Positions 11,456 to 61,994 of a stretch of DNA of 64,000 nt are shown one piece after another. Where the stretch lies: contig JBDUXZ010000031.1 of NCBI GenBank assembly GCA_039944855.1, positions 124,001 to 188,000 on the forward strand, in the 5' to 3' direction. The notes under the pieces were generated by a model. That model was not told the origin of the DNA and did no database searches. It saw nothing but the letters and a program-made list of their open reading frames with translations. The number at the start of each line of letters is the position of its first letter. Position 1 is the first letter of the stretch. This DNA comes from Rhodothermales bacterium. GTDB lineage: Bacteria; Bacteroidota; Rhodothermia; Rhodothermales; JANQRZ01. The position numbers and the translations under genes are program-made.

Positions 11456-11511
11456 GACTCACGCCGGGAGCGCGTGTGTCTGAAGGAATTACTAACGTCC
11501 CGAATCGAGCT

Positions 11512-28543: not shown

Positions 28544-28551
28544 GGCGAGCG

Positions 28552-29622: not shown

Positions 29623-29636
29623 CCGAGCCCAATGTC

Positions 29637-30098: not shown

Positions 30099-30101
30099 CC
30101 G

Positions 30102-31244: not shown

Positions 31245-31266
31245 CGAAGTCCAGACACCGCGAGCC

Positions 31267-31971: not shown

Positions 31972-32012
31972 CATCGATCCACCCCCAAGACTTCCAACCC
32001 AAGAGGATTCCC

Positions 32013-32588: not shown

Positions 32589-32594
32589 CCACTC

Positions 32595-33395
32595 ATGGAT
32601 ATCCGGGACGTACACACTGAGTTGATCCTCGAAGCGCAGTTCAGCTTCGCGGCGGTGACGGCCGAGCGCCCGGTCGCGGAGCGGGGCGGGGCGCTGGAGG
32701 AGGTGTCGTCGCACTTCCAGGGCCTCGCCCTCTGCCATCTGCTGGAGAACGCCGACGTCGCGCTGTTCCGCGAGAACCTCGTGCGCAGCGGCCACGCGCG
32801 CCGCTACTTCCTCCGCCGCAGCCGATCGGAGGGGAACGACGAAGACCGGCGCCTCGCGCTGAGCCGGACGGAAGCTTTCCTCGACGCCGCCGCCGCCGCC
32901 GACCTCCCGCTCGCGCGCGAGATCGCGACGCTGTCCGTCTCGACGTGGAATCCGGGCTGGGAATACGAGGACGATTTCTGCTACTACCGCATCCTGCAGA
33001 CCCTCGTCCTCGAACCGGATGCGGCGCGCGAGCCGTCACTCGGCGCGCTCCTCGTCCGGTTCGAGCGCGCGCTCGAAGGGGCCGCGTCGTGGCGGCTCGC
33101 GCTCTGCGAAGCGCTCGTGGAGCGAGAGGGGCCGGGCTTCGACGAAGCGCTCCGGGGCTTCGTCGAGGCCGAGCAGGAGGCGAACGACGCGCGGCGGGAC
33201 GCGCTCGAATCCTACGAGTTTCTCTTCTGGCCGCGCAGCTTCGTCTCGGTCGAAGCGCTCGCGCTCCTCCAACTCGCCGCCCTGCGCGGTATCGAGACAG
33301 CGGAGGCGTACCCGCTGTGCCCCGCCATCGCCCGCCTCGCCCCGACGGAGCACCGGTACCGCGACCTCTTCGCGGAGATCGAACGACTCCGGTAG
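32595..33395 (+). CDS. Imm49-like protein
   Basis: 266 residues, starting six bases after the previous gene. Helical with WNPGWEYEDDFCYYRIL near the middle, RRYFLRRSRSEGND earlier and YEFLFWPRSFVSVEALALLQLA late, a pattern I associate with the Imm49 family. If right, it is a second immunity-type gene; the matching toxin is not obvious here. Other possibility: an effector chaperone. Confidence 0.58.
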   Translation: MDIRDVHTELILEAQFSFAAVTAERPVAERGGALEEVSSHFQGLALCHLLENADVALFRENLVRSGHARRYFLRRSRSEGNDEDRRLALSRTEAFLDAAAAADLPLAREIATLSVSTWNPGWEYEDDFCYYRILQTLVLEPDAAREPSLGALLVRFERALEGAASWRLALCEALVEREGPGFDEALRGFVEAEQEANDARRDALESYEFLFWPRSFVSVEALALLQLAALRGIETAEAYPLCPAIARLAPTEHRYRDLFAEIERLR

Positions 33396-33425
33396 CCGTT
33401 AGCGGACTCTCACGCCCCCCACCCC

Positions 33426-40636: not shown

Positions 40637-43600
40637 ATGGCTGTCCCGACCTTTTCGCTAACCGTCACTCCAACCGCCGGCACCGCGACTGTTTTCTCGG
40701 ACATAACGGGGGACAATGGGCGCATCGAGTCGTTTGTAGGAGAAGATCATATTTCGAAGCTGTTTGAGTACCGGCTCAAACTCCAGTACACCTATGCCGT
40801 GGTAGCGGGGGAGCCGCCGCCCATCGACTTCAGCAAACTGGTCAACCAGAGCGCTACGCTCACGATGGTTCAGCAGGCTCTCAACGTCAAGGCCGTAGGG
40901 AATACGCCAGCGGAGTACGTCCCGACGACGGTGAACATCGAGGGCGTGCTGTCGAGCTTCTGCGTGACCAAGAAGGTCAGCGATGGCGTCCTCGCCTGCG
41001 AGGCCGTGCTCGTCCCGACGCTGTGGCGGCTCGGGATGTCGCGCGGCAGCCGGGTGTTTCAGAACCTCACCACGCAGGCGATCGTCACGCAGATTCTCAA
41101 TCAGGCCGGACTCACGAACTACGAGTTCAGGTTGAGCGCTTCCGCCTATCCGACGAGGGAGTTTTGCATGCAATACCAGGAGTCCGACCTGGACTTCGTC
41201 CAGCGCCTGCTCGAATACGAGGGGATCTTCTATTTCTTCGAAGGCGGGAAGCTGGTCTTCGCCGACGGTAAGACGCTGCCGCCGGTGGCAGATCGGGGAG
41301 GTGTGTGGTTCTTCGAACCGAGTGGGGCGATGACCCCGACGGACGACCAGGTGTACAGCTTCATCTACAGCGAGCAAGTCGTCCCCCATACCGTCACGGT
41401 GCAGGATCACGACTTCGAGTCGTTTCTGAGCGAGGACGACAGCCAATCGGGTACGGATGTCAACGCGAGCGGGGAGACGCATGCTCGGGTGGGCACCCAC
41501 CGGGAGCACGGCCGCTTCGTCGTTAGCAAGCGGAATTGGGTAGCCAAGCAGAGCGGAGACCCCAACGGCAAGCTCAGCACGGAGTCCGGGAGCACGATCA
41601 CGACCCGCGATACCGAGCTAACGCGCCTCGCTCGGATCCGTGCTGAGGAGCTGGAAGCGCAACGGAAGACGGCCACGGCGAAGTCGACGATCTCGCGCAT
41701 CCAGCCGGGGCACGTCATCGGACTCACCGACCACTTCCTCTTCGACGATTCGTATCTCATCACCAGCGTCTGCCACAGCTACGAAGCCGGGGCGTACAAG
41801 AACGGGTTCACGTGCCTCGCCTCGGCGGTGCAGTTCCGGCCCTCCCGGAGCACCCCGATCCCCCGCGTGCCCGGCATCATGACGGCGAAGGTGAAGGGGT
41901 CCGACCCCAACAACGACGACGCCGAGCCGCACATCGACGACGAGGGGCGCTACCGGGTTCGGTTTCCGTTCGATCCCAACGCCGCGTCGGCGGCCGAGCC
42001 GTCCCGCCCCGTCCGTCTCGCGCAGCCCTACGCCGGCAAGGATTACGGGATGCACTTCCCCAACCGCGGTGAGGTCGAGATGGTCGTCGCGTGCCTCGAC
42101 GGGGACCCCGACCGCCCCCTCGGGCTCTCCGTCATCCCGACCCCGTGGAAGCACGCGCCCGTCCCGAACTCCAAGCACGGACTCCGTACGCAGAACCCCT
42201 GGACGGGGTCGGCGGCGGGGTCGGCGGCGGGGATAGACCGGGAGGCGGCCATTTCCAAAGCGGGGGAGGCGGCGAAGGAGGCGGCCATCACGGCAGGGCA
42301 GACGGAGGTCCAAGCTGAGGCAGCGGCCGAAGCAGCGAGGACGACCACTAGGCAACAACTGGAATCGGCGGCGGCGTCCGACGCGACAGCGACGGCAGCG
42401 GCGGGACAGACGGAGGCTGCCTTCCCCTTCTTCGGGACGAAGAGCGTGATCCGGACGCAGCTCGGCCACCAACTCGTCATGGACGACGCCGACGGCGGAG
42501 CGAACGTCGGCGTCACGTTGCAGGTGGGGAAGAAGGACAACGCCACCGGGCGCAACGTGTACTGGAACAGCCGGATCGACATGGGCGGCTACCGACACCT
42601 GAGCGGGCTGGAAAAGACGCTCGGCATCATCAGCACGGCCGTCGGCTATTTCCGGTCCGCCTTCACCCGCGATTTCCCGGGGATGGCCTCCGAAGCGTTG
42701 GGGATCATCGCTTCGCAGGTAACGACGGACGACTACGTCGACGACACGTTCGGGAATACGACGCCCGTGGGGATCAGCATCTCCACCGACAAGGACGTGA
42801 ACGTCAAAGGCGGTGGCGGGGTGAACATCACCTCGCCCAACCTCTTCGGCATGTTCAGCAGCAGCCTCGTCGGCGACGACTCCAGCGAGAAAGAAGGGCA
42901 GTATCGGGCCGAGGCGATCTCGAAGTTTTTGGTCAACCTCATCTGGCAGGAAGTGATCAACGGCACCGCTGACGAGCTGATGGAGACGAGGGAGGACGAG
43001 AAGGCATACAAGAACAATCCCCGCGTCAATCCCAAGGTGAAAGCTGCGTTCAAGTGGAGGGAGAACTTCAAAGAGCAACGAGTCAGCGCGCTGCTCTTCA
43101 CCCTCCTCCAGCGCACCGGGGTCAACATTTTCTCAGCGGGGGAGCTGAAGATGGCCTCGCTCCAGAGCACGTCCGTCGCTGCAGGGCAAGGGGGGCTCGC
43201 GCTGAAGTCCTTCGGCGATATCGAGCAGAAAGCGGACCTCGGGATAGAGCTAAGCTCGCACCAGGGGATCAAGCTCACGACAAAAGGCCGCCCCTACAAA
43301 GGCAAGGGCGTGTTCAAGGTGCTCGGCAAACTAGGAGGGGCGGTGGCGAATCCGGCCATCGCGGCAGGGCTGAAGAAAGCCCAAGCCATGCTGAACAAGG
43401 GGCAGACAAAGCTCTCCAACCTCGGGTTCGACGAGAGTGAGATGTTCAGCATCGAGCTCAACAATGACAACGGGGACATCCTACTCCACACCGGCGGGCC
43501 AAAGCAGAAGGGAGAAGGGGACATCATGGCCCATGTGGAAGGGAAAGGCGATCTCAAGGCCTTCGCGAACGATGGGCAGGTTCACCTGTGGTCCGGCAAA

Positions 43601-44074
43601 GATGGATCGGAGGGAGGCATCGTGATGGAAGTCGGGCCAAGGAAAAAGTCGGATGAGAATAAGCGTCTGGCCACGGATGTATTTGGCTCGCGGATTAGCC
43701 AAACCGACAAGGTCGCCGAGGTATTTGCTAAAGAGAAGGTGCGTATTAGTACAGATGATTTCGTCCGGGGTAAGTCATACGTGGAAATAGATAAGGGAGA
43801 TCAGATCGAGATCAAGTGCGGGCAGTCCAGCATTGTGCTGAAGAAGAATGGAGACATCACCCTGGAAGGGAATAACATCACGCTCAAGGGTAAGAAGAAG
43901 GTGACGATTGACGGGACGGATGTGTTGTCGAAGGCGAAGAAAACGATGGCTATTTCGGGGATGAAAGTGAGCGTGGATGCGAAAACGCAGGCGACGTTGA
44001 AAGGCAAGGTCGCCGTCGCAGTCGACGGGGCGATAGCGCAGGTGAAGGGGAAGATGGTCAAGGTCGGCTCGTAA
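40637..44074 (+). CDS. vgrG: T6SS spike protein VgrG (second, long form)
   Basis: 1145 residues. A gp27/gp5 base as in other VgrGs (EFCMQYQESDLDFVQRLLEYEG, RPVRLAQPYAGKDYGMHFP) is followed by an Ala/Glu-rich helical insert (about 523-596), then KSVIRTQLGHQLVMDD, a 400-residue region with a helical segment (about 755-820), and beta-prism-like tip strands (KCGQSSIVLKKNGDITLEG, final VKGKMVKVGS). Much longer than VgrG1. The middle shares order and motifs with VgrG3 (YWNSRIDMGGYR, DTFGNTT). No enzymatic domain recognised. The 3' part is less GC-rich than the surroundings. Confidence 0.93.
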   Translation: MAVPTFSLTVTPTAGTATVFSDITGDNGRIESFVGEDHISKLFEYRLKLQYTYAVVAGEPPPIDFSKLVNQSATLTMVQQALNVKAVGNTPAEYVPTTVNIEGVLSSFCVTKKVSDGVLACEAVLVPTLWRLGMSRGSRVFQNLTTQAIVTQILNQAGLTNYEFRLSASAYPTREFCMQYQESDLDFVQRLLEYEGIFYFFEGGKLVFADGKTLPPVADRGGVWFFEPSGAMTPTDDQVYSFIYSEQVVPHTVTVQDHDFESFLSEDDSQSGTDVNASGETHARVGTHREHGRFVVSKRNWVAKQSGDPNGKLSTESGSTITTRDTELTRLARIRAEELEAQRKTATAKSTISRIQPGHVIGLTDHFLFDDSYLITSVCHSYEAGAYKNGFTCLASAVQFRPSRSTPIPRVPGIMTAKVKGSDPNNDDAEPHIDDEGRYRVRFPFDPNAASAAEPSRPVRLAQPYAGKDYGMHFPNRGEVEMVVACLDGDPDRPLGLSVIPTPWKHAPVPNSKHGLRTQNPWTGSAAGSAAGIDREAAISKAGEAAKEAAITAGQTEVQAEAAAEAARTTTRQQLESAAASDATATAAAGQTEAAFPFFGTKSVIRTQLGHQLVMDDADGGANVGVTLQVGKKDNATGRNVYWNSRIDMGGYRHLSGLEKTLGIISTAVGYFRSAFTRDFPGMASEALGIIASQVTTDDYVDDTFGNTTPVGISISTDKDVNVKGGGGVNITSPNLFGMFSSSLVGDDSSEKEGQYRAEAISKFLVNLIWQEVINGTADELMETREDEKAYKNNPRVNPKVKAAFKWRENFKEQRVSALLFTLLQRTGVNIFSAGELKMASLQSTSVAAGQGGLALKSFGDIEQKADLGIELSSHQGIKLTTKGRPYKGKGVFKVLGKLGGAVANPAIAAGLKKAQAMLNKGQTKLSNLGFDESEMFSIELNNDNGDILLHTGGPKQKGEGDIMAHVEGKGDLKAFANDGQVHLWSGKDGSEGGIVMEVGPRKKSDENKRLATDVFGSRISQTDKVAEVFAKEKVRISTDDFVRGKSYVEIDKGDQIEIKCGQSSIVLKKNGDITLEGNNITLKGKKKVTIDGTDVLSKAKKTMAISGMKVSVDAKTQATLKGKVAVAVDGAIAQVKGKMVKVGS

Positions 44075-44146
44075 CCAAACACGTCACTCTTACAAGTCCC
44101 CACTGCTATGCTGAATCGCGCCGCCCAACTCGCTCGAAACGCTAGG

Positions 44147-44187
44147 CCCGGCCCGCCCCTCCTCCGTCCGAGGAGGGCGAGGCCGGG
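44147..44187 (+). other. Long stable hairpin between vgrG2 and vgrG3
   Basis: CCCGGCC (44147-44153) pairs with GGCCGGG (44181-44187); the inner GCCC-TCCTC pairs with GAGGA-GGGC with one bulge; 5-base loop. The 182-base gap holds no gene. There is no T-tail; possible mRNA processing signal, rho-related stop, or REP-like element. Confidence 0.6.
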
Positions 44188-44256
44188 TGAACCAGTCCGT
44201 CGTCATACGTACGTCCTCCTGCTCCATCTCTCGCGTCCTTAGAACCCCACACCCGT

Positions 44257-47200
44257 ATGCCACTGGACATCTCGTACTCGTTCACGGTGACGCCCCCGGC
44301 GGCGCCCCCAGGCGAAAGCCTCTCGAAAGCGGCCCAAGCGGCGGCCGACAAGCTCACGTCCTCGACGTTCACCGTGCTCTCGTTCGAAGGAGAGGAGCGG
44401 ATGTCGAGCCTGTTCCGCTTCGAGATCGAGGTGTTCTCCAAGGAGACCGACTTCCCGCTCGAGGAGCTCGTCGGGCTGGCAGCGACGTTCAAGCACACCA
44501 TCGACAAGACGAAGCATAGCTACGTCCATGGCGTCGTCGCGGACATCAGGCAGGAGCGCGGGTGGTATCAGGACGTGGAGGGGAAGTCTGTGGTGGGGGG
44601 CGCCTACTACCGGGTGGTCCTGGTACCGCAGCTGTGGAAGCTCGGCCTCCGCTTCCGTAGCCGCGTCTTCCAGAATCTTACGATCGATGATCTCTTGAAG
44701 GAGGTCTTGCAGGGGGCGGGGTTGCGAGAGAAAGTCAGCTATCAACTCAACCTCCGCGATACCTACGAGCCCAAGCAGTTCTGTGTGCAATACCGAGAAA
44801 CCGATCTCCAGTTTATCCAGCGGACGATGGAGGAGACGGGGCTCTACTACTTCTTCGACCACACCGGGACTTCGGACCTCCTCGTTATTACGGACGACCG
44901 CCGGGAGGAATTGCTCCTTGACGGGACCCGGGTCGAGACGGCCAGTACGGCCTCCGCTGCGTCGCTTCCCGCGCCGGTCCCTTACGATCAGACCGGCGGG
45001 CTCTCCGCGGATGCCCCACGTATCGCCGAACTCGTCGCCCGGCAGTCCGTCATCCCCAAGCTTGTGATCGTGCGCGACATCAACTTCGAGGACTATGCGG
45101 ACGTCGACGAGGCCGGCTGCATGGAAGAGAAGGGGCTCATCACCGTGTTCGACAAGGCGACCCTCCCGGCCGAGGACCACGTCCACTACGAGCACGGGCA
45201 CTTCTTCACTGGCGAGCGCAGCGGGGTCGAGCCTAAGACCACGACGGGGGAGACGAGCGACGCCGCCACTCGACGGCAGGCTCTGCTCAAGCGGCTGGCC
45301 CGGCGGCGGTACGAGGAGTTCCAGTGCGAGCGGTTCGTCCTCGTCGGCCGGGGGAATCACCCCGCCTTCCGAAACGGCCACCACTACGAACTCAGCGCCC
45401 ACTACCGGGGGAGTTGGAACGGCCAGTTGTACCGGCTCACCCGGGTGCGGCACCGTGGCTGGGCCACGACCCTCTATAACGAGGCGCGTACGGCTCCCCC
45501 CTACGAGAACGAGTTCGAGGCAATCCCTTCCACCATCCAGTTCCGCCCGAAGCGGACCACGCCGGTCCCGAAGGCGCCCGGCGTCATGACCGCCCGCATC
45601 GAGGCGTCCGAGGTGGCCCGGACCGCTGCGGAGGACGCCAGCAGTCCCTTCGCGGCCGACATCGACGCCGAGGGCCGCTACGTCGTCCGCCTCCCGTTCG
45701 ACCGCCGGCCCGACACGACCAGCCAGGAGGGGACGGGATCGCGCCGAGTGCGCATGGCGCAGCCGTACGCGGGACCCGATCACGGTCTCCACTTCCCGAA
45801 TCCGCCGGCCGCCGAGATGCTGCTCGGGTTCCTCGACGGGGACGTGGACAAGCTCGTTGGGCTCTCCGCGTTGCCGGACCCGTGGAACCACTCGCCGGTC
45901 CCGAACGAGGCCCTCTCGACGAGGACGCAGAACGCGGCGGAGGAGACGCCGCTCGTCGCCCCCTCGCCGATCATGTTCGGCGACACGAAGAACGTGATCC
46001 GCTCGCGCGTGGGCCACCAGTTCATCATGGACGACGGGAACGCCGGGGAGAACGTAGGCATCACCTTGGAGACCGGAAACAAGGTGTCGAGTTCGGGGAT
46101 CCGGCCGCTGAACCTGTACTGGAACAGCCGGATCGACATGGGCGGCTACCGCCAGCGCGACTTCTTCGAGCAACACCTCGGCAATATCTCGCACGTGTGG
46201 AACTGGGCCAAGTTTTTCCGCGAGCCCTCCGTCCCCGAGTTCATGGGGATTGCCCTCACGGAAATGGCTACCATGCTCAGCTTCGGGCCGAGCCCGGAGG
46301 ACTGGGCCGGCGAGACGTTCGGCAACACGACCCGCGTCGGCATCGAGATGAACACGGACGAGTCCATCAAGCTGATGGGCCAGAACGGCGTCGAGATCGT
46401 GATGCCGAACGTGTTTGGCTTCTGGGGGGGCGGGACCGTGCCCGGTATGGACACGCAGGGTTCGCACCGGCTCGGCTGGGCCATTACGGACTTCCTGATC
46501 AGTGCGCTCTACGAAGACGCGATTAAGGCAACCGTAGATAAGGTCAAGGATGGGAGGAAGGCAGCCGAGGGGAAGGTGGGGACGGCGGCGCGCAGCGCGA
46601 GGGCGGCCGAGTGGATAAAGCACGAGGAGTACAAACAGAAAAAACGGTTACAACTGGTGGGTAACATCGTCAAGTCTGCGCTTGGCGCTCCCAGCCTCGA
46701 CCTCAAGTCGGCCGGCGATGTTCAGGTGATGGCGTTCGACACGACGAAGATCGGCGGCGGCCACGGCGGCATCGAGGTGGTTTCCAACGCCGACGTCACG
46801 CAGATGGCCGGGCTCGACTACACGGTAGAGGCCGCGCAGGGGATCAGTCTAAAGGCGAAAGGAGAGCCTGTGGGGCGGCCCGGTATCCTCAACGCGATCC
46901 CCAAAATGTTTTCGGAACTCGGGGTCCCAGCTCCGCCAGGGGTCAAGGTCAATCCGGGCGGCTCCATCATGCCGGAGCCGACGGATTGCAAGATCGAGAT
47001 CGAGAACGAGAACGAGGACGTCCAGATCATCGCCGGCGGCAAGGACGACGGCGCACGGAAGAAGAAGATCTCCCTCCTCTCCCGGCACGGGGACATCGAG
47101 CAGATCGCCGGCTCCACCGTGCGCGTGCAGATCGCGACGTGGGATGAGAAGAAGGGGGAGTATAAGTACGAGCATGATCACCCGTTCTTCGAACTTCGCA

Positions 47201-47730
47201 AGGGCGAACTCATCCTCAAATGTGGAAGCTCGGCGATCAAGCTCGAGGCCGACGGCACCATCACGCTCCAGGGGAAGAAGGTGCAGATCGCCAGCAAAGA
47301 GACCAGTCTTGTCTCGACAAAAGACATCACTCTGCGGTCGATGCAGGGTAAAGTCAACCTCTCGGTGGACTCGCCTTCGGGGCCGCCCCCGGACGACAGC
47401 GGCATCAAACAGGCGTCTATGGATTATGCAGACGCAGCCGGCAAGCAAACAGGCGTGGAGGCCGCTCTGCGGAAATACAACGCCGAGTTCGATAAGTATG
47501 AGACGCAGGTGTTCATGCAGAAGCAGCCCTCGTCCTCCGTCGAGGTCTCGGCGACCGACGTCAAGGTCACGGGGAAGATGGGCATCAAGATGGACTGCGT
47601 GAACTTCGAATCCGAGGCGAAGATGAAGCAGGAACTGAAGGGCAATATGCTGACCATCGACGGAAAGATGACCGACGTGAAAGGGCAGATGACGATCGTG
47701 AAGGGGAGTCTCATCAAGATCGGCTCCTAG
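44257..47730 (+). CDS. vgrG: T6SS spike protein VgrG (third, long form)
   Basis: 1157 residues, same overall plan as VgrG2: spike base (KQFCVQYRETDLQFIQRTMEETGLYY, MAQPYAGPDHGLHFP), then NVIRSRVGHQFIMDD, YWNSRIDMGGYR, TFGNTTRVG, a helical segment (about 750-810) and repeated tip strands (KCGSSAIKLEADGTITLQG). It lacks the Ala-rich insert of VgrG2 and ends in a separate helical stretch (near 1055-1085) plus a last beta segment ending KGSLIKIGS. Preceded by a large hairpin and followed by PAAR, so it is likely the spike carrying that PAAR. Confidence 0.93.
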   Translation: MPLDISYSFTVTPPAAPPGESLSKAAQAAADKLTSSTFTVLSFEGEERMSSLFRFEIEVFSKETDFPLEELVGLAATFKHTIDKTKHSYVHGVVADIRQERGWYQDVEGKSVVGGAYYRVVLVPQLWKLGLRFRSRVFQNLTIDDLLKEVLQGAGLREKVSYQLNLRDTYEPKQFCVQYRETDLQFIQRTMEETGLYYFFDHTGTSDLLVITDDRREELLLDGTRVETASTASAASLPAPVPYDQTGGLSADAPRIAELVARQSVIPKLVIVRDINFEDYADVDEAGCMEEKGLITVFDKATLPAEDHVHYEHGHFFTGERSGVEPKTTTGETSDAATRRQALLKRLARRRYEEFQCERFVLVGRGNHPAFRNGHHYELSAHYRGSWNGQLYRLTRVRHRGWATTLYNEARTAPPYENEFEAIPSTIQFRPKRTTPVPKAPGVMTARIEASEVARTAAEDASSPFAADIDAEGRYVVRLPFDRRPDTTSQEGTGSRRVRMAQPYAGPDHGLHFPNPPAAEMLLGFLDGDVDKLVGLSALPDPWNHSPVPNEALSTRTQNAAEETPLVAPSPIMFGDTKNVIRSRVGHQFIMDDGNAGENVGITLETGNKVSSSGIRPLNLYWNSRIDMGGYRQRDFFEQHLGNISHVWNWAKFFREPSVPEFMGIALTEMATMLSFGPSPEDWAGETFGNTTRVGIEMNTDESIKLMGQNGVEIVMPNVFGFWGGGTVPGMDTQGSHRLGWAITDFLISALYEDAIKATVDKVKDGRKAAEGKVGTAARSARAAEWIKHEEYKQKKRLQLVGNIVKSALGAPSLDLKSAGDVQVMAFDTTKIGGGHGGIEVVSNADVTQMAGLDYTVEAAQGISLKAKGEPVGRPGILNAIPKMFSELGVPAPPGVKVNPGGSIMPEPTDCKIEIENENEDVQIIAGGKDDGARKKKISLLSRHGDIEQIAGSTVRVQIATWDEKKGEYKYEHDHPFFELRKGELILKCGSSAIKLEADGTITLQGKKVQIASKETSLVSTKDITLRSMQGKVNLSVDSPSGPPPDDSGIKQASMDYADAAGKQTGVEAALRKYNAEFDKYETQVFMQKQPSSSVEVSATDVKVTGKMGIKMDCVNFESEAKMKQELKGNMLTIDGKMTDVKGQMTIVKGSLIKIGS

Positions 47731-53028: not shown

Positions 53029-54840
53029 ATGAGCGACGTACACAAGAACGTAGGCCTCTTCATCTCCTCCGATCCCGACACGACGTCGGTCACGCAGCCC
53101 GGCGCGGGCGCCCAGCGGCGCGAGAAGCGGATGCCGCTGCGGCTCATGCTCGTCGCCGATCTCGTGCCGCAGCAGCGCCCGAGCCGGACCGAGTCCGTCG
53201 CGCGGCGGGTGGACGTGAACAGCTTCGCCGGGGTGATGGAGGAGTGGAAGCCCGCGCTCCGCATCGAGGTCCCGAATCGGCTGAGTCCGCAGCCGGCGTC
53301 GCTGGAGATCGGGCTGCGGTTCACGTCGCTCAAAGACTTCGCGCCCGCCGCGATCGCGCGGCAGGTCCCGGCCCTGGCCCGGCTGTTGGCGATCCGTACC
53401 GAAGTCCACGGCGTCCGCACCGAAGGCACCGACCGCGAGACGTTCCGCGCCCGCCTCGCCGAAGCCGGCATCGACGCCGCTTCGGCCGACGGACTCTACG
53501 GCCAGCTCACCGTCGAGCCACCGAAGCCGAAGCCCGCGAAGCCGAAGACGGACGACCCGCTCGACCGGCTGATGGGCCTCGTGGACACGGGGGATGGGAG
53601 CGACGACGAGCCGGTCGGCATCGGCGCCGCGCTCGCCGACGCGGTGTCGGACGGCGCGCCGCGCATCGCGGCCTCGGCCGCCGACAAAATCTTGGCGGAC
53701 TTTGACGCGAAGCTCGGTGGGCAACTCCGCGCGATCATCGAGCACCCGGACCTCCGCCGGCTCGAAGCCGCGTGGCGTGGGCTGAAGCTGCTCGTCGACC
53801 GGCTGCCCTTCCGCGAGGGCGTCCTGCTCGACGTGGTTCCCGCCCGCCGCGAGAGCCTCAGCGAGACCGTCTATTACCAAGTGCTCGTCCCCGAGCACGA
53901 GGCCGCCGACGCCGGCGACCCGCTCACCGCCGTCATCCTCGGCTTCGCCTTCGACAACAGCCAGGCCGACGTCGAACTGCTCGACGACCTCGCCGGGACG
54001 GGGGCGAGCCTGCAGGCGCCGTTCATCGCCTCCGCCGCGCCGGGATTCTTCGGGTTCGACGCGCCCGAGGCGATCGGGCCGCTGCCGCTCGTGCCGCAGT
54101 TGATGCAGGGCCCGGAGTACATCCACTGGAACAAGCTCCGTGACAAAGACGAAGCGCGGCACCTCGCGCTCGCGTTCCCCCCGTTCCTCCTCCGCCCGCC
54201 GTACGGGCCGGAGCATCCGTCGAAGGAGGTCCCCGTCGAAGAGCAAGGCTACCTGTGGGGCGGCGGCGCGCTCGCCGTCGCGCTCGCGATGGCCGATTCG
54301 CTCGCCAAAACGGACTGGCCGACACACCTCACCGGCCGTCCCGTCGACGATCTCCCGATCTGGGAGACCGACCGGGGCACGACGCCGCTCGCCGTCCTGC
54401 TGCCCGAAGGGAAAGCCGCCGAACTCGGCGACGCCGGGTTCGTCGCGCTCACCGGCACGGCCAACCGCGACCGGCTGCAGATCGCGCAGGCTCCCAACGC
54501 CTCGCGGCCCCAGATTTTCGACGACGCCGAGAAGACCGCGCACGCGGCAGCGCACGCGACGCTCGGGTGCGGCCTCTTCGCCGCGCGGGCGGCCCACCGC
54601 CTGCTCCTCCTGCCCGCCGAAATCGATGCCTCGGCGGATCTGGAAACGAAGACGGCAGCCGTCGTCGCGCGGCTTCGTAGTTTCCTCGGCGGAGACGAGG
54701 CCTCGGTCACGGCCGATCCTGTCCCCGACGCCGAGATCGAGGGGTACGACCTGCTTGCCATCCGCATGCAGCCGCCGCGCCACGTGTTGAGCACGCCGGT
54801 CCACCTCGCCATCGGCTTGCCGATTCCGAGAAAAGAATGA
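53029..54840 (+). CDS. Natural TssB-TssC fusion (paralogous T6SS sheath protein)
   Basis: 603 residues. Residues about 33-150 match TssB (KRMPLRLMLVADL, SFAGVMEEWKP, LRFTSLKDFAPAAIARQVPALARLLAIR). A Lys/Pro linker (PKPKPAKPKTDDPLDRL, near 164-180) joins them to a TssC-like part: FDAKLGGQLRAI, RRLEAAWRGLKLLVDR, LIGFAFDNS-type segment, FFGFDAPEAI, HWNKLRDKDEARHLALAFPPFLLRPPYGP, YLWGGGALAVA. The dedicated tssB and tssC genes are separate at 22191-24301, so this is an extra sheath-type protein in the cargo region. Role unknown: decoy, modified sheath or structural cap. Confidence 0.85.
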   Translation: MSDVHKNVGLFISSDPDTTSVTQPGAGAQRREKRMPLRLMLVADLVPQQRPSRTESVARRVDVNSFAGVMEEWKPALRIEVPNRLSPQPASLEIGLRFTSLKDFAPAAIARQVPALARLLAIRTEVHGVRTEGTDRETFRARLAEAGIDAASADGLYGQLTVEPPKPKPAKPKTDDPLDRLMGLVDTGDGSDDEPVGIGAALADAVSDGAPRIAASAADKILADFDAKLGGQLRAIIEHPDLRRLEAAWRGLKLLVDRLPFREGVLLDVVPARRESLSETVYYQVLVPEHEAADAGDPLTAVILGFAFDNSQADVELLDDLAGTGASLQAPFIASAAPGFFGFDAPEAIGPLPLVPQLMQGPEYIHWNKLRDKDEARHLALAFPPFLLRPPYGPEHPSKEVPVEEQGYLWGGGALAVALAMADSLAKTDWPTHLTGRPVDDLPIWETDRGTTPLAVLLPEGKAAELGDAGFVALTGTANRDRLQIAQAPNASRPQIFDDAEKTAHAAAHATLGCGLFAARAAHRLLLLPAEIDASADLETKTAAVVARLRSFLGGDEASVTADPVPDAEIEGYDLLAIRMQPPRHVLSTPVHLAIGLPIPRKE

Positions 54841-54940: not shown

Positions 54941-56695
54941 TTGAGCTCGTATCCCTACTCCGCTTCCCAGCCGACAGGGGCGCGCCCCGAGATCTTGGTG
55001 CGTGTCGAGGGGAGCAGTGTGCCCGGTCTCGAGCGAGCCTTCACCGAAGCCTTTACGATCGGGCGGGGGATTCAGGCGACGCTCCACGTGGACTCCGGCC
55101 GTGTCAGCCGCATCCACGCCGAGGTGCTTCTCGAGGACAGCCAGTGGGTGCTTCGGGACGCAGGGAGTACGAACGGTACCTACTGCGACGGAGAGCGGAT
55201 CGATGAGATGCCCCTGGCGGGGGAAATCGTCGTGCGGCTCGGGCGCGACGGACCGGCCGTGCATTTCAAGGTGCAGGACCGCGCGCCTGTGAGAGAGTCC
55301 GCCGAGACGGCGGTGACGGAAGAGGCGCCCATCGAGATCTTAGAGGAGAAGGCCGAAGCCGATCGGATCGGTCGCAGAACCTCGCCCGACCGAGGGTGGA
55401 TGGGTGCCGGGGTACCTGAGGAGCTTGCTCCGAGCGTGCCGTCGGCAGGTGCGAGCGCTCCGCAGCAGAACGGAGGACCCGCGTCGAGCAAAGCGAAGGA
55501 TCCCAAGGCCTCCGTAAGCCAAGTGATCCGGCGCTACTTCGAAGAGGGAGCCGACGGGCCGGTCGGGGAGCGGACGATGATGATCCGCCAGGCCTATCAG
55601 CAGGTCCAGACCAAACAGAAACGGGCCTACGGCGGCATCATCGGTGGCGTGGCGGTGCTGCTGATTCTGGCGCTCGCCTTCGCCATTTGGCAGCAGATCC
55701 GGGTAGAGCGGTTGGAAGGGACGGCCGAGTCCCTGTTCTACGAGATGAAGGAGCAGGACCTGGAGACGGCCCAACTCCGTCTGCTGGCCGAAGAAGGCGG
55801 GAACGCCGACCTCGCGGCCCAACTCGACAACATCGAGGCGCGTCGCCTCCGCAAAGCCGAACTCTACGAGGGGTACATCGAGGAACTCGGCCTCTACCGC
55901 AAGCTCTCGCCGCAGGAACGGGAGATCTACCGCGTCGCCCGCATCTTCAACGAGAGCGAGTTCACGATGCCGGCGGGCTTCGTGCGCGAGATCAAAGGGG
56001 TCATCACCGAGTGGCAGAGCTCGGGCCGGTTCGAGAACGCCGTCCGGCTCGCCGAGCGCAACGGGTACACGCCCGCGATCGTCCGGACGATGCAGGCCTA
56101 CGGCCTCCCGCCCGAGTTCTTCTACCTCGCGCTGCAGGAGAGCAACTTCGACACGTGCATCAGCGGGCCGCAAACGCGGTGGGGCATCGCGAAAGGGATG
56201 TGGCAGTTCATCCCGACGACCGCGCAGGCCTACGGCCTCGTGACGGGGCCTCGCGTCGATCTCCGCGTCTGCGACCCGCAGGATGAACGCCACGACTTCG
56301 CCCTCGCCACCGACGCCGCCGCTCGCTACCTCCTCTACATCTACACCCACCTGGCCCACGCCTCCGGCCTGCTCGTGATGGCGTCCTACAACTGGGGCGA
56401 GCACCGCGTCGCATCGAAACTCGATCAACTCCCGGAGACGCCCCTCGAACTCGTGCAGCAAGACTTTGAGGGCATCCCGGAGAACCCGCAGCAGCGTAAC
56501 TATTGGCGGTTCCTCAACGAGTACCGAGACCGCATGCCGGATGAGACGAAGAACTACGTCCTCCATATCTTCGCCGCAGCCGTGATCGGGCAGAACCCAC
56601 GCCTCTTCGGGTTCGACTTCGATAACCCGCTGGAGCCTTACCTCCAGGATGCTGCGTCGAGCCCCTCTGCAGCTGCTCTCCCTCCCCACCCCTGA
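54941..56695 (+). CDS. FHA - transmembrane - lytic transglycosylase (SLT) fusion
   Basis: 584 residues from a TTG (54941) preceded by an in-frame stop. The N-terminal cytoplasmic FHA domain (about 15-110) has TIGRGIQATLHV, SRIHAEVLLED and STNGTYCDG. After a Ser/Pro linker comes one transmembrane helix (about 228-250), a periplasmic coiled-coil region and an SLT domain (about 380-560) with LALQESNFD (catalytic Glu), KGMWQFIPTTAQAYGL and ASYNWGEH. So phosphothreonine recognition in the cytoplasm is joined to peptidoglycan cleavage outside. It lies directly before the PP2C and kinase genes. I know no named family with this order. Confidence 0.85.
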   Translation: MSSYPYSASQPTGARPEILVRVEGSSVPGLERAFTEAFTIGRGIQATLHVDSGRVSRIHAEVLLEDSQWVLRDAGSTNGTYCDGERIDEMPLAGEIVVRLGRDGPAVHFKVQDRAPVRESAETAVTEEAPIEILEEKAEADRIGRRTSPDRGWMGAGVPEELAPSVPSAGASAPQQNGGPASSKAKDPKASVSQVIRRYFEEGADGPVGERTMMIRQAYQQVQTKQKRAYGGIIGGVAVLLILALAFAIWQQIRVERLEGTAESLFYEMKEQDLETAQLRLLAEEGGNADLAAQLDNIEARRLRKAELYEGYIEELGLYRKLSPQEREIYRVARIFNESEFTMPAGFVREIKGVITEWQSSGRFENAVRLAERNGYTPAIVRTMQAYGLPPEFFYLALQESNFDTCISGPQTRWGIAKGMWQFIPTTAQAYGLVTGPRVDLRVCDPQDERHDFALATDAAARYLLYIYTHLAHASGLLVMASYNWGEHRVASKLDQLPETPLELVQQDFEGIPENPQQRNYWRFLNEYRDRMPDETKNYVLHIFAAAVIGQNPRLFGFDFDNPLEPYLQDAASSPSAAALPPHP

Positions 56696-56706: not shown

Positions 56707-57468
56707 ATGCTGTGGAAGCGCTCCGCTCGCCCGCTCACCATCCACTTCGGCGCCAAGTCTGACGTCGGCCAGGTCCGTACGGAAAACCAAGACGACTTCG
56801 GCCGCTTCCCCGTCGTGCGGTCTTCGCGTAATGGAGAGCACTTGTTCGTCGTGGCCGATGGGATGGGGGGGCACGAGGACGGGGGGCACGCGAGCCGGGT
56901 CGCCGTTGAGGCAGTCGGCGACACGTACTTCGGTAGCTCGGAAGGCTCCGTCGAAGACCGGTTGCACCGCTCGGTCGGCGAGGCCAACGCCCGGGTATAT
57001 CAGTTCGCGCAGGGCGGCGGGATCCCGAAGAAAATGGGAACGACTTGCACGGCTCTCGCGCTTGTGGGGGAGGATGCGTATCTCGCCCACGTCGGAGATA
57101 GCCGGGCATATCTCATCAACAAGAAGGGGATCGTGCAGCTCTCGCGGGACCACACGCTCGTGGAGGCCCTGATGCGCGAGGGCGTGCTGACCGTAGACGA
57201 GGCCGCGCGGCATCCGCAGCGGCACGCGCTCGTCCGGGCCATCGGGATCGAGCCGCAAGTGCAGGTGGACGTGAAGCAACTCCACACGCCCCAAGCCGGC
57301 GACGCCTTCCTGCTGTGTTCTGATGGGCTGGCTCGCGTAACGAACATCGAGATCCGCGATATCGTCCGCTCAGAGGCCCCACAGCAGGCCGCCGAGACCC
57401 TCGTTCAGCTCGCCAACGATCGGGGCGGCCACGATAATGTGACGGTACTGGTGGTAAAGGTAGAATAA
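56707..57468 (+). CDS. PP2C-family serine/threonine phosphatase (PppA-like)
   Basis: 253 residues. PP2C motifs with metal-binding aspartates: DVGQVRTENQDDF, FVVADGMGGHEDGG, AYLAHVGDSRAYLI, LSRDHTLVEALM, LLCSDGLAR and GGHDNVTVLVV. Length is that of small bacterial Stp/PppA enzymes. With the downstream kinase it forms an on/off pair likely acting on FHA partners (TagH, FHA-SLT). Starts 12 bases after the FHA-SLT gene. Confidence 0.92.
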   Translation: MLWKRSARPLTIHFGAKSDVGQVRTENQDDFGRFPVVRSSRNGEHLFVVADGMGGHEDGGHASRVAVEAVGDTYFGSSEGSVEDRLHRSVGEANARVYQFAQGGGIPKKMGTTCTALALVGEDAYLAHVGDSRAYLINKKGIVQLSRDHTLVEALMREGVLTVDEAARHPQRHALVRAIGIEPQVQVDVKQLHTPQAGDAFLLCSDGLARVTNIEIRDIVRSEAPQQAAETLVQLANDRGGHDNVTVLVVKVE

Positions 57469-57528: not shown

Positions 57529-59508
57529 ATGCCTGACACGTACATCGGCCAAGAGATCGACGGCTTCCGCATCCTTGAGGAGCTAGGGCGCGGCGGGATG
57601 GGCGTGGTGTACAAGGCGGAGGACGTGGCGCTCGCCCGGCCGGTCGCGCTCAAGATGATCGCCCGTGAACTGTCCCGCGACGAGTCGTTCGTGCGGCGCT
57701 TCCGCTCCGAGGCCCGCGCCCTCGCCCGGATTAACAGCTCGTACATCACGAGCATCTACGCGCTGCGCCGGACCGACGACGGCATCTTCATCGTGATGGA
57801 GTTCATCGGGGGCGGGACCCTCGGCGATAAGATGGAGCGGGGGCCGGTGCGCTGGGCCGACATCCGGGCCCCGTTCCTCGAGATGATCTCGGCGCTCGAA
57901 CACGCGCACGGCGTCGGCGTCATCCACCGGGATATCAAGCCGGGCAACATCCTCCTCACCGAGGACGGCCACGTCAAGGTGACGGACTTCGGCCTTGCCA
58001 AGCTCCATACGGCCGACCAGGGGATGACCGTCACACAGGGGATTGCGGGGACGCTCTACTACATGTCCCCCGAGCAGGTCAAGGGCGAGCGCAACCTCGA
58101 CGGCCGCAGCGACCTCTACGCCCTCGGCATCACGATCTACGAAGCGCTCAGCGGCCGCCTGCCTTTCGACCGTGGCGGCAGCGAGTTCTCGACGATGCGG
58201 AAGATCGTCGAGGACCAGTACCCGCCCCTGGGAGAGTTCGCCCGCGACCTCCCGCCCGGCCTCGAATCTGCCGTAATGAAGGCGCTTGCCAAATCCCCCG
58301 ACGACCGCTACGCGAATGCGGCGGCGATGCGGGAGGCGTTTGAGGCCATTCCCGGCGATGCGGCTCCGGCTAGGCTTAACACCAACGGACCGCCACCGCG
58401 TCGGGAGGCGGAGACGGTGGTAGCGGGGGAGGCGTATCAGTCGGCTCCCCCGCCCGTGGTGACGAAGCAGGCGGTGCCGAAGCAGCGCATGATGATTGGC
58501 GGTGGGGTATTCGCGGTGCTCGCGCTCGCCGCCCTCGCCTATTTCTTCTGGCCCTCGGGCAGCACGACCCCGCTCAGCGTGAGTACCGATCCGCCCGGCG
58601 CGGCCGTGTACTTCGACGGGCGAGAGATAGGCCGGACGCCGCTGGAGTCTGTCGCGGTGAGGGGGGAGGGCGGGCGGCTTCGGGTCGAGCGGGTAGGCTA
58701 CGCAACCGTCGATACAACGCTTTCCTTCACTGAGGGGGAGCCGATGAACCTCCTCCTGCCGCTCGTGGCGGTCGCCTCTACGGGGGATGGGAACGTTGGC
58801 AGCGCGCGGGTCGCGCTCCTCAACGTAGCGTCGAACCCGTCCGGCGCTACCGTCGTCATCGACGGGCAGCGGGTAGGGGAGACGCCCTACACACACCGTG
58901 ACAGCACGGGCCGCCCGCTCTCGGTCCGTCTCGAACGACGCGGCTACCAGCCATACAGCGAGACGGGCGTCGTCCTCAACCCCGCGTCGCCGAGAGAAAT
59001 CCGCGCCGATCTAGAACGCGTCACCACCCTGCCTTCGGACAATGCGCCGCCGGGCAACACCGCATCCGATCCTCCTCCGGCCCAGACGGGCACACTCGTC
59101 CTCCGGTCTAATGAGGGCGGCACGGTGACGGTCAACGGGCAGAGCAGGCCCGATTCCGGCACGTTCACCGTCCCGGTTGGTACCCAGACCGTCCGGTGTA
59201 CGCATCCAGACTACGGTAACGCCACCGGCCCCGTCACGATTCGCGCCGGGCAGACCACCACGGCGACGTGCTACTTCCAGGCGAACGTCAACGTGCAGGC
59301 CACAGGCGAGTCGACATGGGGCTCCGTATGGGTCAACAACCGGAACGCCGGCGAGACCGGCGTCATCAAGCTTCCCCCCGGCACTCACACCGTCGAGGTG
59401 CGGCGCAGCGGGTTTAGGTCCGTCGAACCGCCACAACCGGTTACCATTCGGGCAGGGTTAGTACAGCAAACCGAACGGTTGGTATTCACTCTGCAGAAGG
59501 AGGAGTGA
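57529..59508 (+). CDS. Transmembrane Ser/Thr kinase with PEGA repeats (PpkA-like)
   Basis: 659 residues. Kinase domain (about 9-270): LGRGGMGVVYKAED, ALKMI, IHRDIKPGNILL, VTDFGLAK, YYMSPEQVKGE. Residues about 323-341 form one transmembrane helix, followed by about four PEGA-type beta domains outside (TDPPGAAVYFDGREIG, SNPSGATVVIDGQRVG, and two more diverged). The outside part may sense envelope damage or wall contact. In Pseudomonas PpkA activates T6SS by phosphorylating Fha1; the same role is inferred here from the phosphatase and FHA proteins next door. Confidence 0.92.
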   Translation: MPDTYIGQEIDGFRILEELGRGGMGVVYKAEDVALARPVALKMIARELSRDESFVRRFRSEARALARINSSYITSIYALRRTDDGIFIVMEFIGGGTLGDKMERGPVRWADIRAPFLEMISALEHAHGVGVIHRDIKPGNILLTEDGHVKVTDFGLAKLHTADQGMTVTQGIAGTLYYMSPEQVKGERNLDGRSDLYALGITIYEALSGRLPFDRGGSEFSTMRKIVEDQYPPLGEFARDLPPGLESAVMKALAKSPDDRYANAAAMREAFEAIPGDAAPARLNTNGPPPRREAETVVAGEAYQSAPPPVVTKQAVPKQRMMIGGGVFAVLALAALAYFFWPSGSTTPLSVSTDPPGAAVYFDGREIGRTPLESVAVRGEGGRLRVERVGYATVDTTLSFTEGEPMNLLLPLVAVASTGDGNVGSARVALLNVASNPSGATVVIDGQRVGETPYTHRDSTGRPLSVRLERRGYQPYSETGVVLNPASPREIRADLERVTTLPSDNAPPGNTASDPPPAQTGTLVLRSNEGGTVTVNGQSRPDSGTFTVPVGTQTVRCTHPDYGNATGPVTIRAGQTTTATCYFQANVNVQATGESTWGSVWVNNRNAGETGVIKLPPGTHTVEVRRSGFRSVEPPQPVTIRAGLVQQTERLVFTLQKEE

Positions 59509-59588
59509 CAAGTTCTCGGTTGCTCCTATATTGTTACGCCTTACACGCTTTCGTGCTAGGGATTTGTCAGCCAACGAGGTACTTCGCG

Positions 59589-60620
59589 ATGTCTCCGATT
59601 ATGTCCCGCCTACTCTGTGCAATCTTTTGTTTCGTCGGTCTGTTGGGCGCGAGCGCTCAAGCGCAAGAGGCGTCCCTGCAGAAGGCTGTCGAAGCCTTCA
59701 CGGCCGGTGAGTACGACCAGGCCATCAACGGCTTCGCTGCGCTGATCGAAGACGGCTCTGCTGACAAGACCGTCAAGAAGGAGGCGCTCCAGTACCTCGG
59801 CCGTGCCTACGTTGCCAAACGCGCTTTCGACGACGCCCGCTCGACGATCGACCGACTGCTCGACCTCGAGCCCCCGCTCGTCGAGCTCGACCCCGACGAC
59901 GAGCCGCCGTCGCTGATGAAGCTCTACTACGAGGTCCGCCGCGACTACGCCGGCTACGAAGTGCAGCGCCCCGAGCCGGGGATGAAGACCCTGGCTGTGA
60001 TGGACTTCACGAACAGCTCCGTCGACGAGAAAGAGCGCTTCGACCCGATGCAGCAGGGGTTCGCGTCGATGATGATCAACTACCTCGAAGGCTCCACCGA
60101 TCTGAAGGTGGTCGAGCGCGAGCGGATCCAGTGGCTCCTCGACGAACTCGAACTCCAACGTGACGACGGCATCGTCGATCAGGCCTCGGCCGTGCGCACC
60201 GGGCAGCTCCTCGGCGCGAATGCGGTCCTCTTCGGCGCCTTCACGGTGCACGAAAAGCAGATGTGGATCTCGGCTCGCCTCGTGAAAGTCGAGACGGGGG
60301 AAATCCTGCTGGCCGAGCAGATCTTCGGGAAGCGGGACGAGTTTTTCGAGCTCGTCGAGAAGCTGTCCGATCAGGTGACCGAGGCGATCGGCGTAGAGCT
60401 TGCCAGCGCCGGGCGAAACAGCGAAGGCGGCAGCGGCAACGGCGGTCAGACGCGCTCCCTCGACGCTCAGCTCTCGTACTCGCAGGGGCTTGGGCTGATC
60501 GAACAGGAGAAATATCAGGAGGCCTACGACAAGTTCTTGGAAGCGCTCGAGTACGATCCCCAGTATGCCGACGCCCGCCGACGAGCGGACAGCCTGCGCC
60601 CCCAACTCGCGGCGAACTAA
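59589..60620 (+). CDS. CsgG/TolB-like exported protein with TPR-like repeats
   Basis: About 343 residues (a start four codons later at 59601 is also good). Signal peptide (MSRLLCAIFCFVGLLGASAQAQ). N-terminal TPR-like helices (AVEAFTAGEYDQAINGF), a CsgG/FlgO-type core (KTLAVMDFTNSS, EGSTDLKVVERERIQWLLDELELQ, QLLGANAVLFGAFTVHE), and a C-terminal TPR (YDKFLEALEYDPQYADA). Such proteins are periplasmic or outer-membrane associated. It follows the kinase by 80 bases and may be part of its sensing module. Confidence 0.78.
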   Translation: MSPIMSRLLCAIFCFVGLLGASAQAQEASLQKAVEAFTAGEYDQAINGFAALIEDGSADKTVKKEALQYLGRAYVAKRAFDDARSTIDRLLDLEPPLVELDPDDEPPSLMKLYYEVRRDYAGYEVQRPEPGMKTLAVMDFTNSSVDEKERFDPMQQGFASMMINYLEGSTDLKVVERERIQWLLDELELQRDDGIVDQASAVRTGQLLGANAVLFGAFTVHEKQMWISARLVKVETGEILLAEQIFGKRDEFFELVEKLSDQVTEAIGVELASAGRNSEGGSGNGGQTRSLDAQLSYSQGLGLIEQEKYQEAYDKFLEALEYDPQYADARRRADSLRPQLAAN

Positions 60621-60686: not shown

Positions 60687-61994
60687 ATGCCCCGCGGACT
60701 CGCTCTCCTCACTGTGCTAGCGCTCGGGCTGCTCGCTGCCTGCGCACCGACCAACCAAGTCGGCACGGTAGCGCCGGAGAAGCTCGACCGCGCTATTGAT
60801 CGGGCCCGGGCCGACCTCGTCCGCCGGCCCAACGACGCGGGCGCGCTCCGCGACCTCGGCGCGCTCCTCGCGCAAGCGGAGCGCTTCGACGATGCCGCTC
60901 AATATCTCCGGCAGGCGTACGTCGAAGACCGGGACGATCCGAAGACGCTCTACTACCTCGGCCTCCTCAACGAGGCGGAAGGGGATCCCGGGGAGGCACT
61001 TCAGTTTTACGGCCGATTCGAGGACATCTCTCCGCGGTCGGCGTTCCGGCCGTTGTTGAAAGGGCGCTACGAATCGCTCGTCCGCGAACAGATCGAGCAG
61101 GAGATGGGGTCCCTCGCAGCCCGCGAGGACTCGCTCGCTACGGCCGAGGCGTCGCCCCAGACCGTTGCCGTGTTCCCGTTCGCCTACCGTGGGAGCGACC
61201 TCCGCTACGCGCCGCTCGGCCGCGGGTTGGGAGAGATGGTGCAGGCCGACCTCGCCGGCATCGGCGGGCTGCAGGTGGTGGAGCGGCTCCGGCTCCAGTC
61301 GTTGCTGGACGAGCTTTCGCTTTCGCAGTCCGAGGCGTTCAACCCGGCCACGACGCCGCGCGTGGGCCGGCTCCTCCGCGCTGGTCGTGCCGTCGGCGGC
61401 TCCTTCGACGTCGAGGACCGCGACCTCCGGATCGATGCCGCGCTGTGGAACTGGGCGGTGCAACCAACGCCAAACCTGCAGTCGCGGTCGGACAACCTCA
61501 ACGATCTCTTTCAACTGAAGCGCGAGGTTGTGCTCGCCCTCGTGGAGCAGATGGGCGTGCCCCTCACCGCCGAAGAGCGGGCGATGTTCGACGCGGTGCC
61601 CACACGTAACCTCCAGGCCTTCCTCCTCTACTCCCGCGGGTTGGAAGAGGAGGACGCCGGGAATTTCGCCGCGGCGACCGGGCTCTTCCGCGAAGCTGTG
61701 AAGCTCGACCCGTCGTTCGAGCGTGCCGCCGATGCATCGGCGCGCGCTGATGCCGTCGACAAAGCGGGCGGGTCGATCCAGAACGGACTCGCCGCGGCCC
61801 GCTCCCTCGAAAACTTCGGGGGGATCGACCTCGTCGGCAGCCGCCTCGGCAAGCTGAACGATAGCATCGGGTCTGCCTTCATTCCGGGCACCGGGGGCGG
61901 ACGGGATGACCCGTCCGGGGAAGCAGCGGCGGCCACGAGCACCTTCGAGCCGCTCCCCCTCCCGCCGTCACCGCCGCCGCCGGGCGGCAACTGA
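60687..61994 (+). CDS. CsgG/TolB-like lipoprotein with TPR
   Basis: 435 residues. Lipoprotein signal (GLLAACAP; Cys19). TPR-like helices (RDLGALLAQAERFDDAAQYLRQAYVED), a CsgG/TolB-like core (QTVAVFPFAYRGSDLRYAPLGRGLGEM, VERLRLQSLLDELSLSQSEAF) and another TPR near the C-terminus (FAAATGLFREAVKLDPSFERA), with a Pro-rich end. Divergent paralogue of the previous gene; together a probable envelope pair downstream of the kinase. Confidence 0.78.
   Translation: MPRGLALLTVLALGLLAACAPTNQVGTVAPEKLDRAIDRARADLVRRPNDAGALRDLGALLAQAERFDDAAQYLRQAYVEDRDDPKTLYYLGLLNEAEGDPGEALQFYGRFEDISPRSAFRPLLKGRYESLVREQIEQEMGSLAAREDSLATAEASPQTVAVFPFAYRGSDLRYAPLGRGLGEMVQADLAGIGGLQVVERLRLQSLLDELSLSQSEAFNPATTPRVGRLLRAGRAVGGSFDVEDRDLRIDAALWNWAVQPTPNLQSRSDNLNDLFQLKREVVLALVEQMGVPLTAEERAMFDAVPTRNLQAFLLYSRGLEEEDAGNFAAATGLFREAVKLDPSFERAADASARADAVDKAGGSIQNGLAAARSLENFGGIDLVGSRLGKLNDSIGSAFIPGTGGGRDDPSGEAAAATSTFEPLPLPPSPPPPGGN

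Follow-up and report, generated by a model that had tools for sequence, protein, structure and literature searches.

An FHA-lytic transglycosylase protein in a T6SS cluster as a candidate wall cutter under threonine phosphorylation

Results

A T6SS cluster that ends in an FHA-SLT operon

The window (the whole 64,000-nucleotide stretch analysed, from a host genome of 4.6 Mb) contains a T6SS cluster that extends from ~11.5 to 62 kb on one strand. The first part of the cluster encodes a TagH-like FHA protein, TssJ, TssK, TssL, TssM, TssA, TssB, TssC, Hcp, TssE, VgrG and DUF2169, and the middle part encodes immunity-like genes, TssF, TssG, ClpV, two long VgrGs, PAAR and an RHS-repeat protein. The last part comprises a pentapeptide protein, a second DUF2169, a TssB-TssC fusion, a protein that joins an FHA domain to an SLT domain through a transmembrane (TM) helix (FHA-SLT), a PP2C phosphatase, a PEGA kinase and two CsgG/TPR proteins (Table 1). 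The genes from the TssB-TssC fusion to the CsgG-TPR proteins likely form an operon, which lies at the end of this TssJKLM-containing cluster. The canonical TssJLM set is present; absence of TssJ was considered and proved wrong, as its PF12790 match shows. No peptidoglycan-binding domain was matched in TssL. The cluster thus encodes two FHA proteins, one cytosolic (TagH-like) and one membrane-bound with an enzyme domain, and its gene content includes the transmembrane Thr kinase, PP2C phosphatase and FHA partner of a Thr phosphorylation pathway.

The TssB-TssC fusion lies directly upstream of FHA-SLT and is adjacent to it in most orthologous loci of the window's order. Its C-terminal VipB_2 domain was not matched, and we know of no described role for this protein. 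In Thermodesulfobacteriota and Nitrospirota (L058, L061, L063, L074, L083, L090, L097), too, sheath-like genes lie close to FHA-SLT. At the other end of the operon, the two CsgG/LpoB-like TPR proteins are conserved; one has a lipobox and one is weakly similar to TssQ T6SS lipoproteins.

Table 1 Features of the FHA-SLT operon and of the T6SS cluster that contains it (window positions).
Feature	Position	Strand	Details
TagH/Fha-like cytosolic FHA protein (second FHA protein of the T6SS)	11488-12888	+	TIGR03354 E=1.1e-23, below cut-off
TssJ (SciN) stretch	13044-13382	+	PF12790 E=1.4e-18 (contig 31: 137044-137382)
TssK	13519-14874	+	PF05936 1.7e-114
TssL, DotU domain only	14887-15612	+	PF09850, TIGR03349
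TssM	15721-19338	+	TIGR03348 4.3e-236
Canonical TssB	22191-22709	+	
Canonical TssC	22766-24301	+	
ClpV	37753-40575	+	
TssB-TssC fusion (second, divergent sheath-like protein)	53029-54840	+	PF05591 + PF05943; TIGR03355/03358 below cut-off
FHA-TM-SLT protein (FHA-SLT)	54941-56695	+	open ORF, 584 aa, putative TTG start
FHA domain	55055-55243	+	residues 39-101; PF00498; pThr-binding residues R42, S56, R57, H59, N78
Juxtamembrane motif GERTMMIRQAY	55565-55597	+	residues 209-219; Thr212 codon 55574-55576, candidate phosphosite
Transmembrane helix	55625-55690	+	residues ~229-250; hydropathy
SLT (lytic transglycosylase, MltD-like) domain	56093-56428	+	residues 385-496; PF01464; Glu400 codon 56138-56140
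PP2C Ser/Thr phosphatase (Stp1/IreP-like)	56707-57468	+	PF13672; NF033484
Transmembrane Ser/Thr kinase, PknB-like kinase domain, three extracytoplasmic PEGA domains	57529-59508	+	Pfam; TM ~322-340
CsgG/LpoB-like + TPR protein, N-terminal hydrophobic signal	59505-60620	+	operon conserved
CsgG-like + TPR protein, lipobox-like N-terminus (LLAAC)	60687-61994	+	operon conserved

FHA-SLT joins an intact phosphothreonine reader to an MltD-like enzyme domain

Along the FHA-SLT chain, the FHA domain is followed by a ~100-aa disordered linker, one TM helix and the MltD-like SLT domain. Both domains scored well over their Pfam gathering scores (FHA, E=8e-13; SLT, E=2e-11), and no other Pfam family exceeded the cut-off on this protein. 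Hydropathy analysis revealed a single hydrophobic span (KD mean 2.63) with a K/R-rich flank on its cytoplasmic side. Because this K/R-rich stretch precedes the span, the FHA domain is predicted to be cytoplasmic and the SLT domain periplasmic, an N-in/C-out topology. An AlphaFold2 model computed from a 57-row alignment had a mean pLDDT of 82.5, with values >90 for the FHA domain and most of the SLT domain; in this model the linker is disordered at residues ~118-190, and one long helix (208-286) contains the TM span. These results bear out the earlier note, which had described a complete FHA domain, one TM span and an SLT domain with its catalytic Glu on one chain, a PP2C phosphatase and a transmembrane kinase as the next genes, and a TssL that lacks a peptidoglycan-binding domain. 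We also considered that FHA-SLT might be a T6SS effector, which is unlikely given its membrane anchor, its predicted cytosolic FHA domain and the lack of an adjacent immunity-like gene (Imm11 and Imm49 are 20 kb off, at 32-33 kb).

The SLT motifs are complete (ALQE400S, GMWQFIP and ASYNWGE, with E400, W421-Q422 and Y483-N484), and the PF01464 score (43.7 bits vs a cut-off of 21.3), the catalytic Glu, the GxWQ and YN motifs and the fold all place the domain in the SLT family. Foldseek output was dominated by FHA chains, so the structural match of the enzyme part was taken from VIA-align; the best solved structure was P. aeruginosa MltD (Z 19.2), while MltE matched with Z 14.2. The whole-protein MltD profile NF008050 scored 35.3 bits vs a cut-off of 508, and Pfam matched no LysM repeats in FHA-SLT. 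Pfam likewise matched no peptidase family, and with an SLT enzyme domain the protein is distinct from TagX-type endopeptidases. Conservation of individual sites was counted in an alignment of 93 homologues, with the juxtamembrane Thr scored in 91 and the FHA contacts in 92. The catalytic Glu is present in 90 of the 93, and the other active-site motifs are nearly as conserved.

The FHA domain is likewise complete in its pThr-binding residues (GR41-42, S56-R57-H59 and S76-T-N-G-T80), so that the PF00498 match is accompanied by all GR, SRxH and NG contacts of a pThr-binding FHA domain. Contact residues R42/S56/N78 are intact in 91/92 homologues that possess the domain. Structural comparison of the model matched the reader to Rv1747 FHA-1 (Z 17.5), and the T6SS Fha/TagH profile TIGR03354 scored 24.9 bits vs a cut-off of 120.25.

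The linker could not be aligned among homologues except for a stretch before the TM helix with the consensus Y-[FL]...G-[ED]-[HR]-T-M-M-[IV]-R-x-A-[FY]. This motif (from its G-[ED]-[HR]-T onward) is previously unremarked, and its Thr is kept in 88 of the 91 homologues scored. Thr212 lies ~17 residues from the membrane, and the residue at +3 is aliphatic (T-M-M-I), which is a preference of some FHA domains. In the AlphaFold2 model, Thr212 is the beginning of a predicted helix; its conservation could therefore be structural (a helix N-cap), and the residue would need to unfold for FHA binding. However, a helix cap alone should tolerate Ser, Asp or Asn, and the exceptions have instead lost the whole motif, which argues against a cap-only view. 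We discarded the idea that GE[HR]T is common to other proteins of the window: the single match of this kind, in TagH (AGQRTHALRDAL), is weak and is absent from the TagH proteins of G009 and G012. Two relatives, G001 and G002, additionally encode a 218-aa paralogue (L175 1372-2025 and L176 1435-2088) that has a C-terminal hydrophobic anchor and an FHA domain ~60% identical to that of FHA-SLT; neither an enzyme domain nor the GE[HR]T motif was found in it.

We propose, with a probability of roughly 55%, that FHA-SLT serves the T6SS as a dedicated lytic transglycosylase, anchored in the inner membrane and equipped with a phosphothreonine reader of its own, and that Thr phosphorylation recruits the enzyme or switches it. 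On the cytoplasmic side, the FHA domain and the Thr212 motif would lie near the PEGA kinase and the PP2C phosphatase, with the MltD-like enzyme facing peptidoglycan on the periplasmic side. The most plausible target of the transmembrane kinase would be Thr212 (pT-M-M-I), either on the chain whose FHA domain reads it or on an adjacent one; another T6SS protein, for example TagH or TssL, could be phosphorylated instead. FHA binding would then cluster the enzyme at, or recruit it to, the nascent TssJLM complex, and wall opening would thereby be local and reversible by PP2C. Our preferred version, which we hold tentatively, is that pThr212 is read by the protein's own FHA domain. The main alternative is that the FHA domain reads phosphorylated TagH or TssL, by analogy with Agrobacterium, where Fha binds pThr14 of TssL (PMC3953482).

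FHA-SLT co-occurs with T6SS in the window's order and frequently beyond it

Among 60 relatives from the window's order, 17 have a strong FHA-SLT orthologue, 15 have VipB and 14 have both. VipB is thus present in 14/17 carriers of FHA-SLT vs 1/43 non-carriers (Fisher 5.5e-10, uncorrected for kinship), and three families (f2, f11 and f12) include genomes with both genes beside genomes with neither. The exceptions in the order are G047, which has a T6SS and no FHA-SLT, and three f9 genomes, which have FHA-SLT and no VipB. The gene order TssBC fusion-FHA-SLT-PP2C-kinase-CsgG-CsgG is wholly or largely retained in most carriers of the order. In G009, the kinase and phosphatase had been thought lost, wrongly: the PP2C-kinase-CsgG-CsgG part is located beside TssK and TagH. 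The kinase also sits with TagH in G047, and a candidate wall enzyme replacing FHA-SLT in that genome was rejected when the gene proved to be TagH. Based on these gene positions, the neighbouring kinase and phosphatase may serve mainly the cytosolic TagH.

With the alignment from the window's order as query, 84,980 species genomes were scanned and 214 loci with FHA-SLT relatives were found. The best 80 of the 214 are nearly all full-length and come from about ten phyla, including Acidobacteriota, Thermodesulfobacteriota, Nitrospirota, Ignavibacteriota, Bacteroidota/Rhodothermota, KSB1, Aminicenantes, Gemmatimonadota, Myxococcota and a few Pseudomonadota. VipB is encoded by 39 of 50 checked carriers, nearly all of them outside the order. 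Among the remaining carriers, two have TssM, and in one the contig with FHA-SLT also carries VgrG and DUF2169; about 8 of the 50 have no T6SS signs (VipB, TssM), several of these being incomplete MAGs. Some T6SS-negative carriers keep all FHA-SLT motifs intact. Iterated profiles were used for distant neighbour genes, for which single-query phmmer was too weak. At loci of at least 12 kb outside the order, a T6SS gene was found within about 10 kb in 17/43 and a kinase or PP2C in 19/43. In the phylum sample of 296 genomes, 12 have FHA-SLT, 13 have VipB and 8 have both, and outside the order only one of the four FHA-SLT carriers (G181) has VipB. The T6SS link of FHA-SLT is thus strong in the order, where the gene is encoded in and co-occurs with T6SS, and frequent elsewhere but not absolute.

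FHA-SLT is intact or nearly so at L069 (2544-7062), L072, L113, L116 and L120, in genomes where neither VipB nor TssM was detected and with neighbours such as SPFH, DUF3160 and a NamZ exo-muramidase; a non-T6SS use is possible at these loci.

Some genomes in which no T6SS was detected (Aminicenantes, Ignavibacteria, f29) have intact copies beside such ordinary neighbours as NamZ, SPFH and MatE, and in many Acidobacteriota the gene lies away from the T6SS cluster. Both observations would fit a general phosphorylation-controlled wall-remodelling enzyme of diderms that is often near T6SS genes and not part of the machine. We consider this unlikely, however, given the strong VipB co-occurrence in the order, the adjacency of a TssBC fusion or VgrG/ClpV in several phyla, and the scattering of T6SS-free carriers among T6SS carriers in the tree.

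Natural losses separate the enzyme from the reader

The three f9 proteins (G010, G022 and G031) have an intact FHA domain, a replaced catalytic Glu (PLTLSLFD and like) and no Thr motif, and by their sequences are a natural enzyme-dead form. The PP2C and kinase neighbours are retained in G022 and G031. VipB was found in none of the three f9 genomes and TssM in G031 only. At the corresponding loci (L044 3316-5061, L045 3-1328 and L046 13574-14908), the other SLT motifs are lost along with the Glu, and PP2C and kinase neighbours are present in L044 and L046.

That f9 lost the Glu and kept the domain, the FHA reader and, in two genomes, the PP2C and kinase neighbours suits a different function, in which the SLT domain would be chiefly a peptidoglycan anchor that replaces the missing binding domain of the DotU-only TssL, FHA would dock it to phosphorylated TagH or TssL, and cutting would be secondary. 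A lytic transglycosylase, AgmT, does link a gliding machine to the wall, although AgmT activity is required there (PMC11444678). A pure binder would need neither the catalytic Glu nor the other active-site motifs, yet these are kept in nearly all homologues across about ten phyla; moreover, f9 is one clade, and neither VipB nor TssM was found in two of its three genomes. An anchoring role is therefore unlikely in our view.

The reader has been lost in other lineages. In G046, the FHA contacts (GS-RD-H, RANQT) and the Thr motif are lost while the SLT motifs are intact. No PP2C or kinase gene was found around the T6SS of this genome, TagH is absent genome-wide, and no orthologue of the PEGA kinase was found, the only two other kinases matching over the kinase domain alone. 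G070 (an f29 genome, in which VipB and TssM were not found) has likewise lost the FHA contacts and the Thr motif and kept the SLT domain intact. Two lineages have thus lost the reader residues and the Thr jointly while keeping the enzyme, and degenerate FHA domains are associated with absence of the Thr (Fisher p=0.003, from few events). The counter-case is f9, where the Thr was lost while the FHA reader was retained; in all, four proteins from two lineages keep FHA and lack the Thr. A phospho-independent or TagH-type scaffold role for FHA, with the kinase and phosphatase acting on TagH only and the conserved Thr as a helix cap, would agree with the presence of TagH, the kinase beside it in G009 and G047 and the helix that Thr212 begins in the model, but is very unlikely given the near-universal retention of the pThr contacts, the absence of Ser, Asp or Asn among the few Thr exceptions and the joint decay of reader and Thr.

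Discussion

From the sequence, the earlier note inferred a T6SS wall-cutting enzyme that Thr phosphorylation would either recruit or switch, and our analysis upholds this in part. The protein is T6SS-linked and membrane-anchored, its pThr reader is intact, the kinase and phosphatase are conserved beside it in the order and often elsewhere, and the coupled losses strengthen the claim. It is qualified by the G009 and G047 arrangements, where kinase or phosphatase genes lie beside TagH, and by the carriers without VipB or TssM, so FHA-SLT may not serve the T6SS alone.

FHA-SLT resembles known T6SS wall enzymes combined with a known phosphorylation pathway and is not categorically new. MltE is a housekeeping lytic transglycosylase needed for T6SS membrane-complex assembly in EAEC (PMC10433429; mechanism in PMC5841429). 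Both proteins have an SLT-fold lytic transglycosylase domain, but MltE is encoded outside the cluster, lacks FHA and is recruited and stimulated by TssM, whereas FHA-SLT is encoded in the T6SS locus, is predicted to be anchored in the inner membrane and is closer to MltD. TagX, which opens the wall for T6SS in Acinetobacter (PMC5061870), is like FHA-SLT a membrane-associated wall enzyme encoded within a T6SS cluster; TagX, however, belongs to the L,D-endopeptidases, is homologous to phage endopeptidases and has no reported FHA domain, in contrast to the glycan-cutting SLT fold. P. aeruginosa MltD (8rhe/8rhi) shares the catalytic domain fold and motifs, but known MltD has LysM domains (8rhf), and FHA-SLT has FHA and a TM helix in their place. 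On the phosphorylation side, the Fha/TagH-PpkA-PppA systems also combine an FHA domain, a transmembrane Thr kinase and a PP2C phosphatase in a T6SS cluster (PMC3953482, PMC12607579), and in Acidovorax PpkA phosphorylates Fha (PMC12607579). Unlike FHA-SLT, Fha/TagH is cytosolic, has no enzyme domain and is a separate protein in the window's cluster, and the window's kinase differs in bearing PEGA domains. GarA/OdhI and DgcB are FHA proteins with phosphothreonine on their own chain (structures 6hc1 for DgcB and 2kb3 for pOdhI), but no wall enzyme is attached to them, and GE[HR]T bears no relation to the Thr motif ETTS of GarA/OdhI (PMC8546545). A literature search, with most subscription papers outside its reach, found no description of an FHA + transglycosylase/SLT protein in T6SS, and a 2023 review treats specialised lytic transglycosylases as the exception in T6SS clusters (PMC10433429).

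How a T6SS passes through its owner's peptidoglycan has been only partly answered so far. FHA-SLT may mark a widespread class of T6SS with its own wall cutter under a one-protein phospho-switch: the PEGA kinase would sense the periplasm and phosphorylate the Thr of GE[HR]TMM[IV]R, which the protein's own FHA domain, on the same or an adjacent chain, would read, coupling wall opening to assembly across the membrane. This wider proposal is possible, though we consider it doubtful as a whole. A family that joins a wall cutter to a pThr reader in roughly ten phyla, often with a kinase/phosphatase operon, would supply a built-in answer for many little-studied T6SSs, and Thr phosphorylation would, unusually, govern peptidoglycan cutting across a membrane. 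Because the Thr is conserved and natural losses are coupled, such a phospho-switch would be addressable by single point mutations.

Two further parts of the cluster are of separate interest. The two VgrG-like proteins (1145 and 1157 aa) at 40637-47730 have very long C-terminal parts and lie beside PAAR and the 931-aa RHS-repeat protein. Finally, the block of DUF2169, ketosynthase-like, Imm11, Imm49 and HEAT-like genes at 28423-34799 is also found in G002, G032 and G039, with partial versions in L059, L109 and L122.
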